This document shows positions 3,945 through 23,400 of a DNA stretch of 47,192 bases, piece after piece. A program made the position numbers and the translations under genes. Position 1 is the first letter of the stretch. Each line of letters starts with the position of its first letter. This DNA comes from an uncultured Flavobacteriales bacterium. Its GTDB lineage: Bacteria > Bacteroidota > Bacteroidia > Flavobacteriales_G > Salibacteraceae. The stretch is taken from assembly GCA_913020435.1 (NCBI GenBank), contig CAJVZZ010000019.1:1-47192 (forward strand). The letters run 5' to 3'. The notes under the pieces are model-generated. The model was not told the DNA's origin. It searched no databases and worked only from the letters and a program-made list of their open reading frames with translations.

Positions 3945-6317
3945 ATGAATGCTTTTTTTACCTCATTTTTTCTCCTAATAGCTAGTTTGGTTTATAGCCA
4001 GCATGCTCATCATACTTTTCAAACAGAAGAGGGAAGACGCTCCGATACCATAAACGTTTTGCATTACGAAATTGCATTGGATTTAACCGATTCTATTTCA
4101 AAAAAACTAAAAGGTGTTGCAGAAATCACTTTGTTGTCAAAGCAAAATGGACTTACGAAAGTAAATCTGGATTTACTGAAGTTAACGGTTGATTCGGTTT
4201 GGCTGGAAGGAACTCGCACAACGAACTGGTCACATAACGATACATTGCTTTCGGTCTCAACAAACTCAAAGAACAAAGGAGACACCATTCGAATTAAAGT
4301 TGCTTATCACGGTTTGCCATTTGGCGAACAATGGGGAGGCTGGTACAACAATGCGAATTACATTTTTAACCTTGGTGTTGGGTTTAAATCCATTCCGCAT
4401 AACCTTGGAAAAGTATGGCATCCGTGTGTCGATAATTTTGTAGAGAGAGCTACTTACACCGTTGGTTTAAAAACGTTTGGAAGTTGGATTGGTGTTGGGT
4501 CTGGGATTTTGACAAAAGTTGATACTGTACAAATAAGTCCTCGAATTTTAAACAGAACGTGGCAATTGAATCAAGAAATACCGACCTACTTATATGGAAT
4601 AGCTGCTGGCCGATACATTCTGCTAAAAGATACTTTTCAAGGCCCATTAACTACGATTGAATCTGACTTATACGTATTGTCATCGCAGCTTAACAGCATG
4701 CTCATTAAAACACAGCGACTAGAAGATTGCTTTAAACTGTACGAAACTAAATTTGGCAAGTATCGCTGGGATCGAGTTGGTTATTCTACCACTTCTCAAG
4801 GTGCAATGGAACACGCTACTAATATCGCAATTCCTCCAGGTGCTTCTGAATCGACTATTATGCACGAACTTTCTCATCATTGGTGGGGCGACCTTATTAC
4901 TTGTGAGTCCGATAGAGATATGTGGATTAACGAAGGAATGGCAGTTTTTTCGGAGTACTTATTTGCAGAAGACTTATACGGTAAAGAACAGGCGCGTTCA
5001 GACATGCACGGAGATTTATTTACAGTTTTAAATACAGCCCACAAACAGGAAGACGGATATCAACCAATTTCGGGTGTGCCCAGAGTGCATACTTACGGAA
5101 CACATACGTATAGAAAAGGAGCTTTGGTAGGACACAACTTAAGAGTGAAACTGGGAGATCAGAAAGCATTTTCGGGTTTCACTGATTTTTTGGATTCCAA
5201 TGAATTTTCAGCAGTAAACAGTTATGATTTCAGAGATGGAATGTCAAAAGCTACTGGAGTTGACCTTACTGAATTTTTTGACGATTGGGTATTTAGCCCC
5301 GGTTTGCCATGTTATGTAATTGATTCTTTTAAGGCTACTGCTAGTGCAGGATTGTACTCTATTGAATTAACGGTTAGACAGCTAAAAGCGAACTCCGATC
5401 ACTTTTTTGGAAAAATTCCATTGGAGGTGAAATTCTTAGATGCTCAATTTAATGAGCATTTTGAAACTATTGATGTTGGAGGAGAGTTGAGCACTGTCAA
5501 ATTGCAAATCCCAATTAATGCCGCTTATGCCACACTTAACCCAACATACAATTTGAACTACGCAATGACGGCAACCGATCAAGTCGTGAAATCTGCCGGT
5601 TCACTAAACGGGCAAGGATTACTCATTAATGCGCAAGTCTCTTCAGTTACAGATTCAGCATACATTAGGGCTCAAACGTATTGGACAGGACCAAATATTT
5701 CCTTGAGAAATGCTGTGGATTTGCGAGTTCGAGTAAGTTCGAATCGTTATTGGAGAATTGATGGTGTAGGTGCTGCAACCGTTATTTTGTCCGGGTTCTA
5801 CAACGCAAAAAAAGGCGAGAATGATTTTGGGTTGCTGAAATCTAGCGAAGATAGTATTGTAGTTTTATATCGTGAAAAGCCTGAAAACCCCTGGGAAATT
5901 TATAAAAACCCTATTATGAATATTGGTTTACTAACCGATTCTTTAGGTGGTTTTAGAATTGAGAATGGTGCACTTGGTGAGTATACGTTAGCAGAATACG
6001 ATCCTTCATTTAATGAGTCCTTGTTTGATTTTATTGGAGAGGAATTATCTGAGTCTAAATCATACTTAGAAGTTTTTCCTAATCCTAGTAATGATTGGAT
6101 TAGTATAAAAATCGCAGAAGGAGTTGAAGTACATATTACCATTTTGAATTCATATGGGGCAGAGGTGTGGTTATCTGATGTGGAATCAAATACAATGGAA
6201 ATTGATGTTTCTAACTGGCCATCTGGAGTGTATTATATTTTAGGTTACGAAGGAAAGGACATAGGGTCAGTTAATGCTCCAAAACCTATTGATTACAAAC
6301 GACTTATAGTTGAATAA
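3945..6317 (+). CDS. Secreted M1-family metallopeptidase with T9SS sorting domain
   Basis: This is a zinc aminopeptidase-type protein exported by the type IX system. Residues 1-18 form a Sec signal (FFLLIASLVYSQ). The catalytic site is HELSH (H307, E308, H311) with the third zinc ligand E330 exactly 18 residues later in NEGMAVFSE. The upstream exopeptidase loop reads GAMEH, where the family usually has GxMEN. TYGTHTYRKGA supplies the likely catalytic tyrosine. After the peptidase domain (to about residue 460) come beta-rich regions, and the last ~80 residues form a T9SS type A sorting domain (VFPNPSNDWISI ... WPSGVYYILGYEG ... RLIVE). It sits head-to-tail with a second M1 gene that starts on the base after its stop. 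Substrate unknown; surface or extracellular peptide digestion is inferred. Confidence 0.92.
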   Translation: MNAFFTSFFLLIASLVYSQHAHHTFQTEEGRRSDTINVLHYEIALDLTDSISKKLKGVAEITLLSKQNGLTKVNLDLLKLTVDSVWLEGTRTTNWSHNDTLLSVSTNSKNKGDTIRIKVAYHGLPFGEQWGGWYNNANYIFNLGVGFKSIPHNLGKVWHPCVDNFVERATYTVGLKTFGSWIGVGSGILTKVDTVQISPRILNRTWQLNQEIPTYLYGIAAGRYILLKDTFQGPLTTIESDLYVLSSQLNSMLIKTQRLEDCFKLYETKFGKYRWDRVGYSTTSQGAMEHATNIAIPPGASESTIMHELSHHWWGDLITCESDRDMWINEGMAVFSEYLFAEDLYGKEQARSDMHGDLFTVLNTAHKQEDGYQPISGVPRVHTYGTHTYRKGALVGHNLRVKLGDQKAFSGFTDFLDSNEFSAVNSYDFRDGMSKATGVDLTEFFDDWVFSPGLPCYVIDSFKATASAGLYSIELTVRQLKANSDHFFGKIPLEVKFLDAQFNEHFETIDVGGELSTVKLQIPINAAYATLNPTYNLNYAMTATDQVVKSAGSLNGQGLLINAQVSSVTDSAYIRAQTYWTGPNISLRNAVDLRVRVSSNRYWRIDGVGAATVILSGFYNAKKGENDFGLLKSSEDSIVVLYREKPENPWEIYKNPIMNIGLLTDSLGGFRIENGALGEYTLAEYDPSFNESLFDFIGEELSESKSYLEVFPNPSNDWISIKIAEGVEVHITILNSYGAEVWLSDVESNTMEIDVSNWPSGVYYILGYEGKDIGSVNAPKPIDYKRLIVE

Positions 6318-18980: not shown

Positions 18981-20453
18981 ATGAAAAAAATTATTTTAAT
19001 CGGAATCGGCATATCAGTAATCACCAGTTGTGTAAGTCCTGAAAACGAACAAACAAAAACAACAGCAGCCGAAAATACTGTTGAAATGCCTAAAGGAGAA
19101 AACAACGTTGTATATAAGTGGGGAAAAATAGCCTTGGAAGGAACTGCTTTTGATACAGAGCGATTTAAACCAAGACCAACAATTATATCAAGGTATCTAG
19201 GACTTATAATGACATCAATGTTTGATACTTGGACTAGGTTTGACGAAAAGGCAAATCCAGCTTTGGTAAAATGTATTGAGAGAGTGCCTGAAAATATGCG
19301 AACACTTAAGAACAAACAAGAGGCTATAAGCTATGCCGCTTTTCGCACAATGAATGCATACTATTATTCAGATACTGCTGTATGGAAAAAGCGAATGAAG
19401 GCAATGGGCTATGACCCAATGAATACCTCTTTAGATCCAACTACCGCTGCCGGTTTGGGAAATCTAGTGGCTAAAACCATAATTGATCAGCGTAGCACCG
19501 ATGGAAGTAATCAAAATGGAGAATTGACTGAGGGTATGGCTTATAAAGATTATTCAGGGTACGCTCCTGTAAATACCGCAGATGAAAACACCGATATAAA
19601 TCGCTGGCAACCAAAGTACTTTAGCGATGGTGCAGGTGGTTCTTTTGCGCCAGGTTGTTTAACTCCTTATTGGCAACAGGTAAAGCCGCTTTTGATGGAT
19701 TCTGCCAGTCAATTTAGGCCAGGACCGCCGCCGGCTTATGGAACAGAACAATTGAAAAAAGAGGTTATTGAAGTAGTCGACTTACAGGCTAATATGACCA
19801 ACGAACAAAAAGCATTGGTTGAGTTTATGAGAGATGGTCCTCAATCGGTGCAACAAGGTGGACACTGGTTAGTATTTGCGCAAGAAGTCTCGATTAGAGA
19901 TCAGCACACGTTAGAAGCAGATGTGAAAATGTACTTCTTGGCAGAAAGTGTTGCTATGGATGGTTTTATTGCCAATTGGGATTCTAAAATGTTTTACGAT
20001 TATGCACGCCCTTATGCATTAGTGCACGAACAATTTAAAGGAAGAACTATTGCAGGTTGGGCTGGAGAAGTAGAAGGATGGAAAGACGAAATGCCGGGCG
20101 AAGAATGGAGGCCTTATTCTCCAGCAATATTTTTATGTCCACCATTTCCAAGTTATGCTTCAGGACACAGCACAATTAGCGGAGGATATGGAGAAGTGTT
20201 GCGATTATTTAAAGGAAACGATGAGTTTGGAGCAAGCGTTAGGCTCGTTCCCGGAATTATGACTGAACCGGATAAACTTGGAGATACCGTTACTATAAAC
20301 TTCCCGACTTTTACTGAAGCTGCTGAAATGGCAGGCATGTCACGAGTGCTGGGTGGCTATCATATACAGGCCGACAATATTGCGGGACTGGAGCTAGGTA
20401 GAGCTATTGCGAGGCACAATTTTGAAAAATATAAAGTGTTGTTAGGAGAGTAA
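18981..20453 (+). CDS. Vanadium-dependent haloperoxidase / PAP2-type phosphatase lipoprotein
   Basis: This is an exported acid-phosphatase-fold protein of the vanadium haloperoxidase family. Residues 1-17 are a lipoprotein signal ending at the lipobox SVITSC. The body is all-alpha, and the C-terminal half contains PPFPSYASGHSTISGGYGEV, the PSxxSGH motif that binds phosphate or vanadate. The last motif, around MAGMSRVLGGYHIQADNIAGLELG, supplies the SRxxxGxHxxxD element with the catalytic histidine. The 490-residue length suits the bacterial branch. Whether it is a haloperoxidase or a phosphatase cannot be decided. Its final 54 codons and terminator are duplicated at 22005-22213. Confidence 0.85.
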   Translation: MKKIILIGIGISVITSCVSPENEQTKTTAAENTVEMPKGENNVVYKWGKIALEGTAFDTERFKPRPTIISRYLGLIMTSMFDTWTRFDEKANPALVKCIERVPENMRTLKNKQEAISYAAFRTMNAYYYSDTAVWKKRMKAMGYDPMNTSLDPTTAAGLGNLVAKTIIDQRSTDGSNQNGELTEGMAYKDYSGYAPVNTADENTDINRWQPKYFSDGAGGSFAPGCLTPYWQQVKPLLMDSASQFRPGPPPAYGTEQLKKEVIEVVDLQANMTNEQKALVEFMRDGPQSVQQGGHWLVFAQEVSIRDQHTLEADVKMYFLAESVAMDGFIANWDSKMFYDYARPYALVHEQFKGRTIAGWAGEVEGWKDEMPGEEWRPYSPAIFLCPPFPSYASGHSTISGGYGEVLRLFKGNDEFGASVRLVPGIMTEPDKLGDTVTINFPTFTEAAEMAGMSRVLGGYHIQADNIAGLELGRAIARHNFEKYKVLLGE

Positions 20454-20500
20454 TTCGTTTTTAAATAGAATTTTAAAAAGCCCACTTTATCGGGCTTTTT
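20292..20500 (+). repeat. Direct repeat, copy 1 (haloperoxidase 3' end plus terminator)
   Basis: These 209 bases align without gaps to 22005-22213 (constant offset 1713). There are three mismatches, at 20303/22016, 20343/22056 and 20394/22107. Copy 1 is the genuine end of the intact gene. Confidence 0.95.
20473..20500 (+). terminator. Terminator of the haloperoxidase-like gene
   Basis: AAAAAGCCC - short loop - GGGCTTTTT directly after the stop. The same hairpin is present in the second repeat copy. Confidence 0.8.
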
Positions 20501-20581
20501 ATAGTCTATGATATTGCTTGAAAACAGGCATTAGTTGTGTTTAGTTAATACGAATTTTGTTTATTTTAGTAAAAAATTATT

Positions 20582-21862
20582 ATGAAATCTTTTTATTCAC
20601 TTTTTGCTTTGTGGTTTATTTCTTTTTCCTTAATGTCTCAAGTAGGAATTAATAATAGTAGTCCTGATTCAAAATCTGTTTTGGATTTGAAATCCAAGAC
20701 TAAAGGATTACTAATTCCAAGATTGACTTCAATACAGCGAGAAGCTCTGAGTGGAGGAAGTGGTTTTGCTCAAGGAATGATGGTTTATGATACCGACTTG
20801 GACATTTTGTTCATAGGCTATGGAAGTCCTAACAATAGTACAAAATGGTACGCAATGAATCCTTGGAAAACTGAATACAGGACATATAATAATGCTTCTT
20901 CCGCTGACATGACCACTATGACAAGTGGTAAAGCTAAACACGGAAACTTGGGCATAGGAACGCTCACCCCAACTAAAAAATTAACGATTTCAGGAAATGA
21001 TTATCAATTTGGCATCAAAAACACAACAAGAAAAGATATTTGGGGGCTAACCAATTGGGGAAATAATTTATATTTTCAATATACCCCCAATGGAAGTTCG
21101 GCCTCCAACAAAATGATTTTAACTTCAAGTGGTGATTTGGGCATCGGAACAATTAGCCCAAACTATTCATTAGATGTTAATGGAAGTGCTCGATTATCCG
21201 GAGGAAGCGTTTATTTGTGCCAAAGTTTAAATAATAGCGCTGGAAATGTTGGTATTGGTTTTGGCGGTCATAGTAATGTTAAACTCGCAATAAAGTCGAA
21301 TCAAACATATGCTTTAACGGTGGATGGCGCTGCCAAAATATCTGGCGGACATCTTCAATTGTGCCAAAGTTTAAATAATAGCGCTGGTAATGTTGGCATT
21401 GGAGCAGGTGCTGCCAGTAATGCTAAACTCCATATATCATCTAACCAAACTATTGCTTTGCATATAGTCGCTGGAACTGGTAGAGGTGTTTATGTCAAGA
21501 GCGGAACGAATGCTCAACCTGGAGGCGGTTCATGGTTGGCTGTTAGCGATGCGAGACTGAAGGAAGGCGTGGTAAGTTATTCAGATGGATTAAATGAATT
21601 GCTGCAAATCAAACCAGTTAAATTCCATTATACCAAGGAATCTGGCATTGGTTCGGGGAAAGAATATGTGGGTGTCATAGCACAGGATATGGCAAAGATT
21701 GCACCCTATATGGTTGAGCAGGCACCAATTCCGGGTTTAGATGGCGAATATTATAATTTGGACAATAGTGCCATGACTTATATGCTGATAAACGCTGTGA
21801 AAGAACAGCAGGAACAGATAAAAGCTTTAAAAAATGAGGTTGAAGCTTTAAAAAACAAATAA
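20582..21862 (+). CDS. Secreted repeat protein with C-terminal peptidase S74 (endosialidase chaperone) domain
   Basis: This is a 426-residue exported, fibre-like protein. A signal peptide (LWFISFSLMSQ) precedes the conserved Bacteroidota start GINNSSPDSKSVLDLKSKTKGLLIPRLT. Beta-rich repeats with LGIGT/VGIG turns follow. Two near-identical 48-residue units begin at G201 and each contain LCQSLNNSAGNVGIG. The last ~110 residues are an S74 intramolecular chaperone domain: SDARLKEGVVSYSDGL with the expected autocleavage serine, KEYVGVIAQDM, and a terminal coiled coil (VKEQQEQIKALKNEVEALKNK) for trimerisation. S74 domains occur in phage tail fibres, but no other phage gene is present. The gene sits between the two direct repeats, as if inserted. 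Confidence 0.88.
   Translation: MKSFYSLFALWFISFSLMSQVGINNSSPDSKSVLDLKSKTKGLLIPRLTSIQREALSGGSGFAQGMMVYDTDLDILFIGYGSPNNSTKWYAMNPWKTEYRTYNNASSADMTTMTSGKAKHGNLGIGTLTPTKKLTISGNDYQFGIKNTTRKDIWGLTNWGNNLYFQYTPNGSSASNKMILTSSGDLGIGTISPNYSLDVNGSARLSGGSVYLCQSLNNSAGNVGIGFGGHSNVKLAIKSNQTYALTVDGAAKISGGHLQLCQSLNNSAGNVGIGAGAASNAKLHISSNQTIALHIVAGTGRGVYVKSGTNAQPGGGSWLAVSDARLKEGVVSYSDGLNELLQIKPVKFHYTKESGIGSGKEYVGVIAQDMAKIAPYMVEQAPIPGLDGEYYNLDNSAMTYMLINAVKEQQEQIKALKNEVEALKNK
21182..21469 (+). repeat. Two tandem 144-bp units inside the S74 gene
   Basis: Units 21182-21325 and 21326-21469 each encode 48 residues with the shared core LCQSLNNSAGNVGIG and then SNVKLAIKSNQT / SNAKLHISSNQT. The DNA core TTGTGCCAAAGTTTAAATAA is identical at 21215 and 21359. 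Confidence 0.85.
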
Positions 21863-22004
21863 CAGCAAATCATATAAAACATAATAGTAATTCTAATAGC
21901 TCTTGTGTCATTGGCATTGAGCTATAAATGCAATACCCAAAGGCTGGCAACGTTGCAATGGTAAAAACAATACACCCGATTTAAAAGATAGATTTGTAGA
22001 AAGA
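21863..22004 (+). other. Non-coding spacer between the S74 gene and repeat copy 2
   Basis: 142 bases without a gene. It contains a perfect 10-base palindrome GCAACGTTGC at 21947-21956. No terminator for the S74 gene is obvious before the one in repeat copy 2. Confidence 0.4.
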
Positions 22005-22213
22005 ACTATAAACTTACCGACTTTTACTGAAGCTGCTGAAATGGCAGGCATGTCAAGAGTGCTGGGTGGCTATCATATACAGGCCGACAATATTGCGGGA
22101 CTGGAGTTAGGTAGAGCTATTGCGAGGCACAATTTTGAAAAATATAAAGTGTTGTTAGGAGAGTAATTCGTTTTTAAATAGAATTTTAAAAAGCCCACTT
22201 TATCGGGCTTTTT
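22005..22213 (+). pseudogene. Direct repeat, copy 2: orphan 3' end of a haloperoxidase-like gene
   Basis: This is a gapless copy of 20292-20500 with three substitutions. It preserves the reading frame to the same stop (22164-22166) and the same terminator hairpin, but nothing upstream of 22005 matches the gene. Two substitutions are synonymous (CGA to AGA, CTA to TTA) and one is Phe to Leu (TTC to TTA). No start codon gives more than a 41-residue stub. It is a remnant, though its hairpin probably still terminates the S74 transcript. Confidence 0.93.
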
Positions 22214-22353
22214 TTGGTTCTGAAATGGCAGTTTATTGTCATGGTTGTTAAAAACAACCAACTTCAAACCCATTACATCCCAAATTGTCAACTATTATAA
22301 TAAATGATCAAATAATTTAATTGAGATTTGTATTGTTTTAATTTGAGATACCT

Positions 22354-23400
22354 ATGAAAGAAATAGTAACACTAATTGCTGTACTTGCAGTTTTTACCAA
22401 CTGCACCAACTCCCAACAACAATCAACTACTGATGATGCAGCGCAAGTTACCATTCCAAGTATCAACACCACTTGGACGGATAAAATAGTGAAAACTGAA
22501 GCAGAGTGGAAGCAGCAGTTGAGCGCTGATGCATATGAAATTACAAGAGAGAAAGGCACAGAACGACCGTTTTCTCATGCCTATAACGATTCCAAAAAGG
22601 AAGGCGTATTTCTTTGCGTGGCTTGTCAAAATCCATTATTTGCTTCCAACACCAAGTTTAAGTCAGGTACCGGATGGCCAAGTTTTTACGATTTTTATTT
22701 TGAAAAGAGTGTAGCTGTAGGTTCGGATAATTCGTATGGAATGTCGCGTGATGAGGTAGTTTGTGCCCGTTGTGATGCGCATTTGGGACATGTCTTTAAT
22801 GATGGTCCAAAACCAACTGGATTGCGTTATTGCATTAACGGAGTAGCCTTACAATTCAAACCCCAACAGGATTTGCGTTCAGCGGTTTTTGCCGAAGGGT
22901 GTTTTTGGTGTGTTGAAGAGATATTTGAGTCAGTTAAAGGAGTTACAGCAGTTGTATCAGGGTATGCAGGGGGAGAAGAGGAAAATCCTACTTACCGACA
23001 AGTGGGCAGCGGAAGCACAGGGCATGCAGAGGCTATCGAAGTGACATACGATGCTGGTGTAATCAGCTATACTGAATTGCTTAAAGTCTACTTTAATTCA
23101 GGAGATATTACTCAGGTAAACGGCCAAGGAAACGATATTGGAAAACAATATCGATCCATTATTTTTTACAAAACAGATGAGCAACGCACACTTACAGAGA
23201 ATTATATCAAGAATCTAAATGATTCTGGAGAATACAGCCAGCCAATTGCTGTTGACGTAGAAGAGTTTACGAAATTTTATATTGCAGAGAAATATCACCA
23301 AGATTACGTTAAACTCAATCCTAATCAGAGTTACGTAGTAGCTGTATCCATTCCGCGTTATAAAAAGGCAATTCAGCTATTTCCTGAGTTACTGAAGTAA
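22354..23400 (+). CDS. msrBA: MsrB-MsrA fusion methionine sulfoxide reductase, lipoprotein
   Basis: This bifunctional repair enzyme reduces both R- and S-methionine sulfoxide. Residues 1-17 form a lipoprotein signal (VLAVFTNC). The MsrB domain (about 45-170) has the zinc pairs CVAC and CARC, SGTGWPSF, and the catalytic cysteine in LRYCINGVAL. The MsrA domain (about 175-348) has FAEGCFWCVEEIFESVKGV with the catalytic cysteine, SGYAGG, and GHAEAIEVTYD. The domain order is B then A, the reverse of the better-known Neisseria-type A-B fusions. The lipobox suggests repair of oxidised proteins in the periplasm or at the outer membrane. No further operon partner is evident. Confidence 0.93.
   Translation: MKEIVTLIAVLAVFTNCTNSQQQSTTDDAAQVTIPSINTTWTDKIVKTEAEWKQQLSADAYEITREKGTERPFSHAYNDSKKEGVFLCVACQNPLFASNTKFKSGTGWPSFYDFYFEKSVAVGSDNSYGMSRDEVVCARCDAHLGHVFNDGPKPTGLRYCINGVALQFKPQQDLRSAVFAEGCFWCVEEIFESVKGVTAVVSGYAGGEEENPTYRQVGSGSTGHAEAIEVTYDAGVISYTELLKVYFNSGDITQVNGQGNDIGKQYRSIIFYKTDEQRTLTENYIKNLNDSGEYSQPIAVDVEEFTKFYIAEKYHQDYVKLNPNQSYVVAVSIPRYKKAIQLFPELLK

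Follow-up and report, generated by a model that had tools for sequence, protein, structure and literature searches.

The DNA analysed here, a stretch of 47,192 nucleotides from an uncultured Flavobacteriales bacterium (the window), carries on its forward strand an intact gene of 490 amino acids (18981-20453) for a VCPO-like/PAP2 haloperoxidase-family protein, with profile matches to DUF6851, the VCPO second-helical-bundle and PAP2, which is followed by a rho-independent terminator (20474-20501, z = -4.4). Beyond about 1.5 kb of further DNA (20501-22004) the end of this gene and its terminator appear a second time, and an intergenic region (22214-22353) then leads to the native downstream neighbour, a forward-strand gene for a fused MsrB-MsrA methionine sulfoxide reductase (msrAB, 22354-23400). 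The name msrAB, like those given to the rhodaneses and to the array neighbours, comes from reading translations.

The two copies (20292-20500 and 22005-22213, both on the forward strand) align without gaps over 209 bp with three mismatches (copy 1/copy 2: 20303 C/A, 20343 C/A and 20394 C/T), exactly as a sequence-only reading of this DNA had described them. Such a match is far above chance expectation, and a whole-genome search found no third copy of the repeat. As that reading also had it, copy 1 completes the intact haloperoxidase gene, and copy 2 is an orphan end that retains frame, stop codon and terminator. Copy 1 comprises the 3′ end, stop codon and terminator of the gene; copy 2 has the final 53 codons, and its terminator, too, is rho-independent.

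The DNA between the copies contains one complete gene and one relic, and no other full-length copy of it was found in the genome. The complete gene is the single S74 gene that had been noted there (20582-21862, forward strand), with a signal-peptide-like start (signal peptides of this family were judged by eye). It encodes a 426-aa, presumably secreted protein with an N-terminal module of about 140 aa that is common to the array genes described below, internal repeats, and a C-terminal S74 chaperone domain (PF13884, E=3e-11). Two 144-nt (48-aa) tandem repeats, 70% identical, occupy window positions 21164-21451 within it. Viral S74 matches are distant (26-38% identity), and a search of the literature on S74 proteins in Bacteroidetes returned nothing useful.

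The spacer between the S74 stop codon and copy 2 holds a feature that the first reading overlooked, a truncated and decayed phage-tail-collar relic, AINAIPKGWQRCNGKNNTPDLKDRFV (approximately 21903-22004, forward strand), whose reading frame runs straight into the haloperoxidase frame of copy 2 as an in-frame fusion. The relic resembles phage tail-fibre proteins; its match to PF07484 (E = 0.0046) is short of that profile's curated cut-off, and among the loci compared it comes closest to a collar protein encoded in the arrays of a genome from the same genus (E = 4.5e-9). The upstream part of the collar fragment is degenerate, a decay that may predate the insertion. Relic and S74 gene belong to one secreted family, whose members combine a common N-terminal module with a C-terminus of the collar or of the S74 type.

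Comparison with closely related genomes had been named as the check on this structure, and the nearest relative that carries the haloperoxidase, the Crocinitomicaceae MAG SAT3021 (82% amino acid identity to the target protein), is the only genome showing an empty site: its haloperoxidase gene, terminator and msrAB follow one another with nothing in between, and the contig is colinear with it on both sides of the duplication. The 148 bp 3′ of copy 2 can be aligned over their full length with the 147-bp intergenic region of SAT3021, which is of nearly equal length, whereas the DNA 3′ of copy 1 gives no comparable alignment (p = 0.16 against shuffles); with one relative and p = 0.008 against shuffles for copy 2, this flank test offers modest evidence that copy 2 is the one joined to the native flank. 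Since the 5′ part of the gene joins copy 1 and the native flank joins copy 2, the DNA between them appears to be an insertion, and the empty site in SAT3021 puts its size at about 1.5 kb; 209 bp of the target were duplicated. The dissimilarity between the native flank and the DNA that follows copy 1 speaks against an insertion into the intergenic region that left copy 1 untouched upstream of it. Two further genomes of the genus do not inform on the empty site, since one (G003) has no haloperoxidase at its msrAB locus and no haloperoxidase match was found in the other (G001). In G003, two opposite-strand genes (L125, 4927-6796), one of them an AAA-type ATPase by eye, stand upstream of msrAB in place of the haloperoxidase.

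Of the three differences between the copies, the first replaces Phe by Leu in copy 2, and the other two are synonymous (CGA/AGA and CTA/TTA); all were polarised with four relatives. The relatives conserve Phe at the first site, which makes the Leu of copy 2 the derived state. At the synonymous sites copy 2 has AGR and TTR codons, as do SAT3021 (L033) and the loci L034 and L005, so that the CGA and CTA of copy 1 are derived. With only three changes this is weak evidence, but it suggests that the intact gene gained both silent changes and the orphan end the amino acid change. The suggestion that copy 2 had diverged as part of a functional allele thus runs against the polarity, in that copy 1 holds the derived state at both synonymous sites and copy 2 the only amino acid change.

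In three genomes of the same genus (G001, SAT3021 as G002, and G003), genes with the common N-terminal module and a collar or S74 C-terminus are arrayed between ftsZ and kbl, and the family is also represented on two contigs of the genome to which the window belongs. Judged by its signal peptide (by eye), N-terminal module and S74 C-terminus, the S74 gene in the window belongs to this family as an ectopic member. Partial duplications recur among the arrays. One case lies in G001 (L091), where a collar relic (5563-5655) and a truncated copy of a neighbour gene's 5′ end are fused at an 8-bp shared sequence, ATGGGCAT, a microhomology with a chance of about 2e-4; the 96-bp collar fragment there has 95% identity with a complete collar gene that lies 3 kb off. 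In G003 (L090), a relic of the N-terminal module (5110-5400) adjoins a collar gene and a truncated copy, about 80% identical, of a START-domain gene, and contig C3 of the window's own genome has further family relics. A 466 kb sample of that genome was scanned for direct duplications (≥100 bp, ≥80% identity, copies within 8 kb), which, besides the window's duplication, turned up only in the S74/collar family's array and in one internally repetitive protein. Given these recurring junctions of relics with truncated neighbours, together with the scan, the family seems to undergo partial duplication readily, with breaks both in its own genes and in their neighbours, and the window's duplication seems to be an ectopic case.

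The reading that we favour, at a probability of roughly 55%, is that about 1.5 kb from an S74/collar-family locus was inserted recently at the haloperoxidase terminator by illegitimate recombination, with duplication of the last 209 bp. We observe the duplication itself, a relative with an empty site, a collar relic at the junction and similar partial duplications in the sister arrays, and we infer the donor, the singleness of the event and its enzymology. The donor DNA would have consisted of the S74 gene and a relic of a collar-type sister gene; the donor sequence was not found, the closest array genes having about 65-75% DNA identity in the N-terminal part alone. In a template-switching route, synthesis would run through the gene and its terminator, jump to the S74 locus and jump back to a point 209 bp upstream, so that two template switches could yield the whole structure in one event. 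Equivalently, a spontaneously joined fragment bearing the 3′ end might have circularised and integrated by a single crossover, and circularisation followed by single crossover is a reported fate of linear DNA in E. coli (PMC3240628). The breakpoints in the window look unrelated, and the 8-bp microhomology is known from the sister-array junction in L091. The partial duplications in the S74/collar family point to illegitimate recombination rather than to a dedicated cassette, and the event looks like an ordinary DNA-repair or recombination accident that needs no new mobile-element class. It would have been tolerated because the haloperoxidase, its 3′ end having been copied as the surface-protein gene came in, was kept intact and a terminator stands after both genes. 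On this account the insertion is tied to the repeated partial duplications within the gene family, and it illustrates how modular secreted S74/collar genes may spread beyond their home array.

Among bacterial illegitimate insertions and duplications, homology-facilitated illegitimate recombination, circularisation with single crossover, and short-homology rearrangements have been described (PMC3240628, PMC3411829). These processes, too, give rise to one-off insertions and direct duplications, the junctions of which have little homology or none; the known cases were caught experimentally with a known donor, whereas no donor was found here. Merodiploidy generated by natural transformation, as reported in Streptococcus pneumoniae (PMC3784515), likewise involves partial duplication of chromosomal DNA, there driven by transformation, but differs in that here the segment between the repeats is foreign to the locus.

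The strongest competitor, although still unlikely, is a tandem duplication followed by a deletion. An S74-collar segment would first have come to separate haloperoxidase from msrAB. A stretch bounded by one breakpoint in the 3′ end of the haloperoxidase gene and another in the collar gene would then have been tandemly duplicated, which would have created the junction of relic and 3′ end, and the second S74-collar copy would later have been lost. Tandem duplication does yield a relic fused to a truncated neighbour, and the junctions in L091 and L090 resemble such duplications. The scheme nevertheless needs at least one extra event, and its deletion would have to start from the terminator T-run and restore the flank to about the same length as in SAT3021. 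The sequence-only reading had taken a full second haloperoxidase gene in relatives as a mark of this course. None of the target type turned up in the ortholog-bearing genomes found, each of which gives one strong haloperoxidase match (in one genome split across two contigs), and a single strong match per genome is no sign of a second full gene.

Less probable again is the integration, site-specific or of Campbell type, of a small circular cassette made of the S74 gene and a homologous 3′ end, with copy 1 borne by the element and copy 2 the displaced native end. The prophage e14 in the icd gene of E. coli has the same outcome: its integration moves a 165-bp 3′ end (icdC) away from the gene, which is regenerated with 12 nucleotide differences (PMC11148124, PMC6379469). 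The window shares with it an intact upstream gene, an orphan 3′ end of similar size beyond the insert, few and mostly silent differences, and an empty site in a relative; copy 2 is, moreover, ancestral at both synonymous sites and joined to the native flank. However, e14 is a 15-kb prophage integrated site-specifically, whereas the 1.5-kb insert here comprises one gene and a relic and lacks a recombinase. Nor are the differences between the copies of the sort that an imported functional allele would bring; drift after the duplication also accounts for all three. A search with the tyrosine-integrase profile PF00589 found no match in the insert or elsewhere on the window's contig, in agreement with the earlier remark that no integrase is nearby, and the genome's three matches lie on contigs C13 and C39. 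The unit does not occur elsewhere in the genome, the duplicated 3′ end has no relevant match in phages or viral contigs, its plasmid matches are distant homologues (<60% identity), and the collar relic at the insert's edge is decayed. Membership in site-specific integration is therefore not supported. The sequence-only reading, which had described a cassette integration, is borne out in that extra DNA stands at the 3′ end of the gene, the gene is regenerated and the native end is displaced, as the empty site and the flank indicate; its circular or recombining cassette finds no counterpart in a tyrosine integrase on the contig, in terminal inverted repeats or in a phage or viral relative that carries the 3′ end.

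DDE transposons and insertion sequences carry terminal inverted repeats and typically duplicate 2-14 bp of their target. The insert does not fit an element of this kind: its ends form no terminal inverted repeats, and its duplication measures 209 bp.

A misassembly that joined strain variants is improbable, slightly more so than the circular cassette. It is conceivable because the genome is a draft of 50 contigs and the 1.4% difference between the copies equals strain-level divergence; on the other hand, the joins of relic to copy 2 and of terminator to S74 gene are new adjacencies and not simply alternative haplotypes of one locus, colinearity with SAT3021 continues on both sides, and the ratings of the genome are 98.4% for completeness and 0.2% for contamination. 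Very improbable is the broader idea that the surface-protein genes of the family travel in small non-autonomous cassettes, which would pick up or bring along the ends of neighbour genes and regenerate them on integration, as a recombinase-free or trans-mobilised analogue of e14/icd integration; the recurrent pairing of family relics and truncated neighbours in three genomes would then be the cassette footprint.

The arrays themselves (L090-L094, and L088 and L089 on the genome's own contigs) consist of secreted-protein genes with the N-terminal module and swapped collar or S74 C-termini, with many relics between them, at the ftsZ-kbl locus in L090-L092 or elsewhere, and look like a fast-shuffling surface-protein family. 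In L089 (3300-3713), one relic of this module contains two TGA stops and adjoins the START-domain gene. Genes for LytTR-type response regulators and sensor-kinase-like proteins (by eye) are interleaved with the collar/S74 genes in L090 (7000-18500) and L091 (11984-12688).
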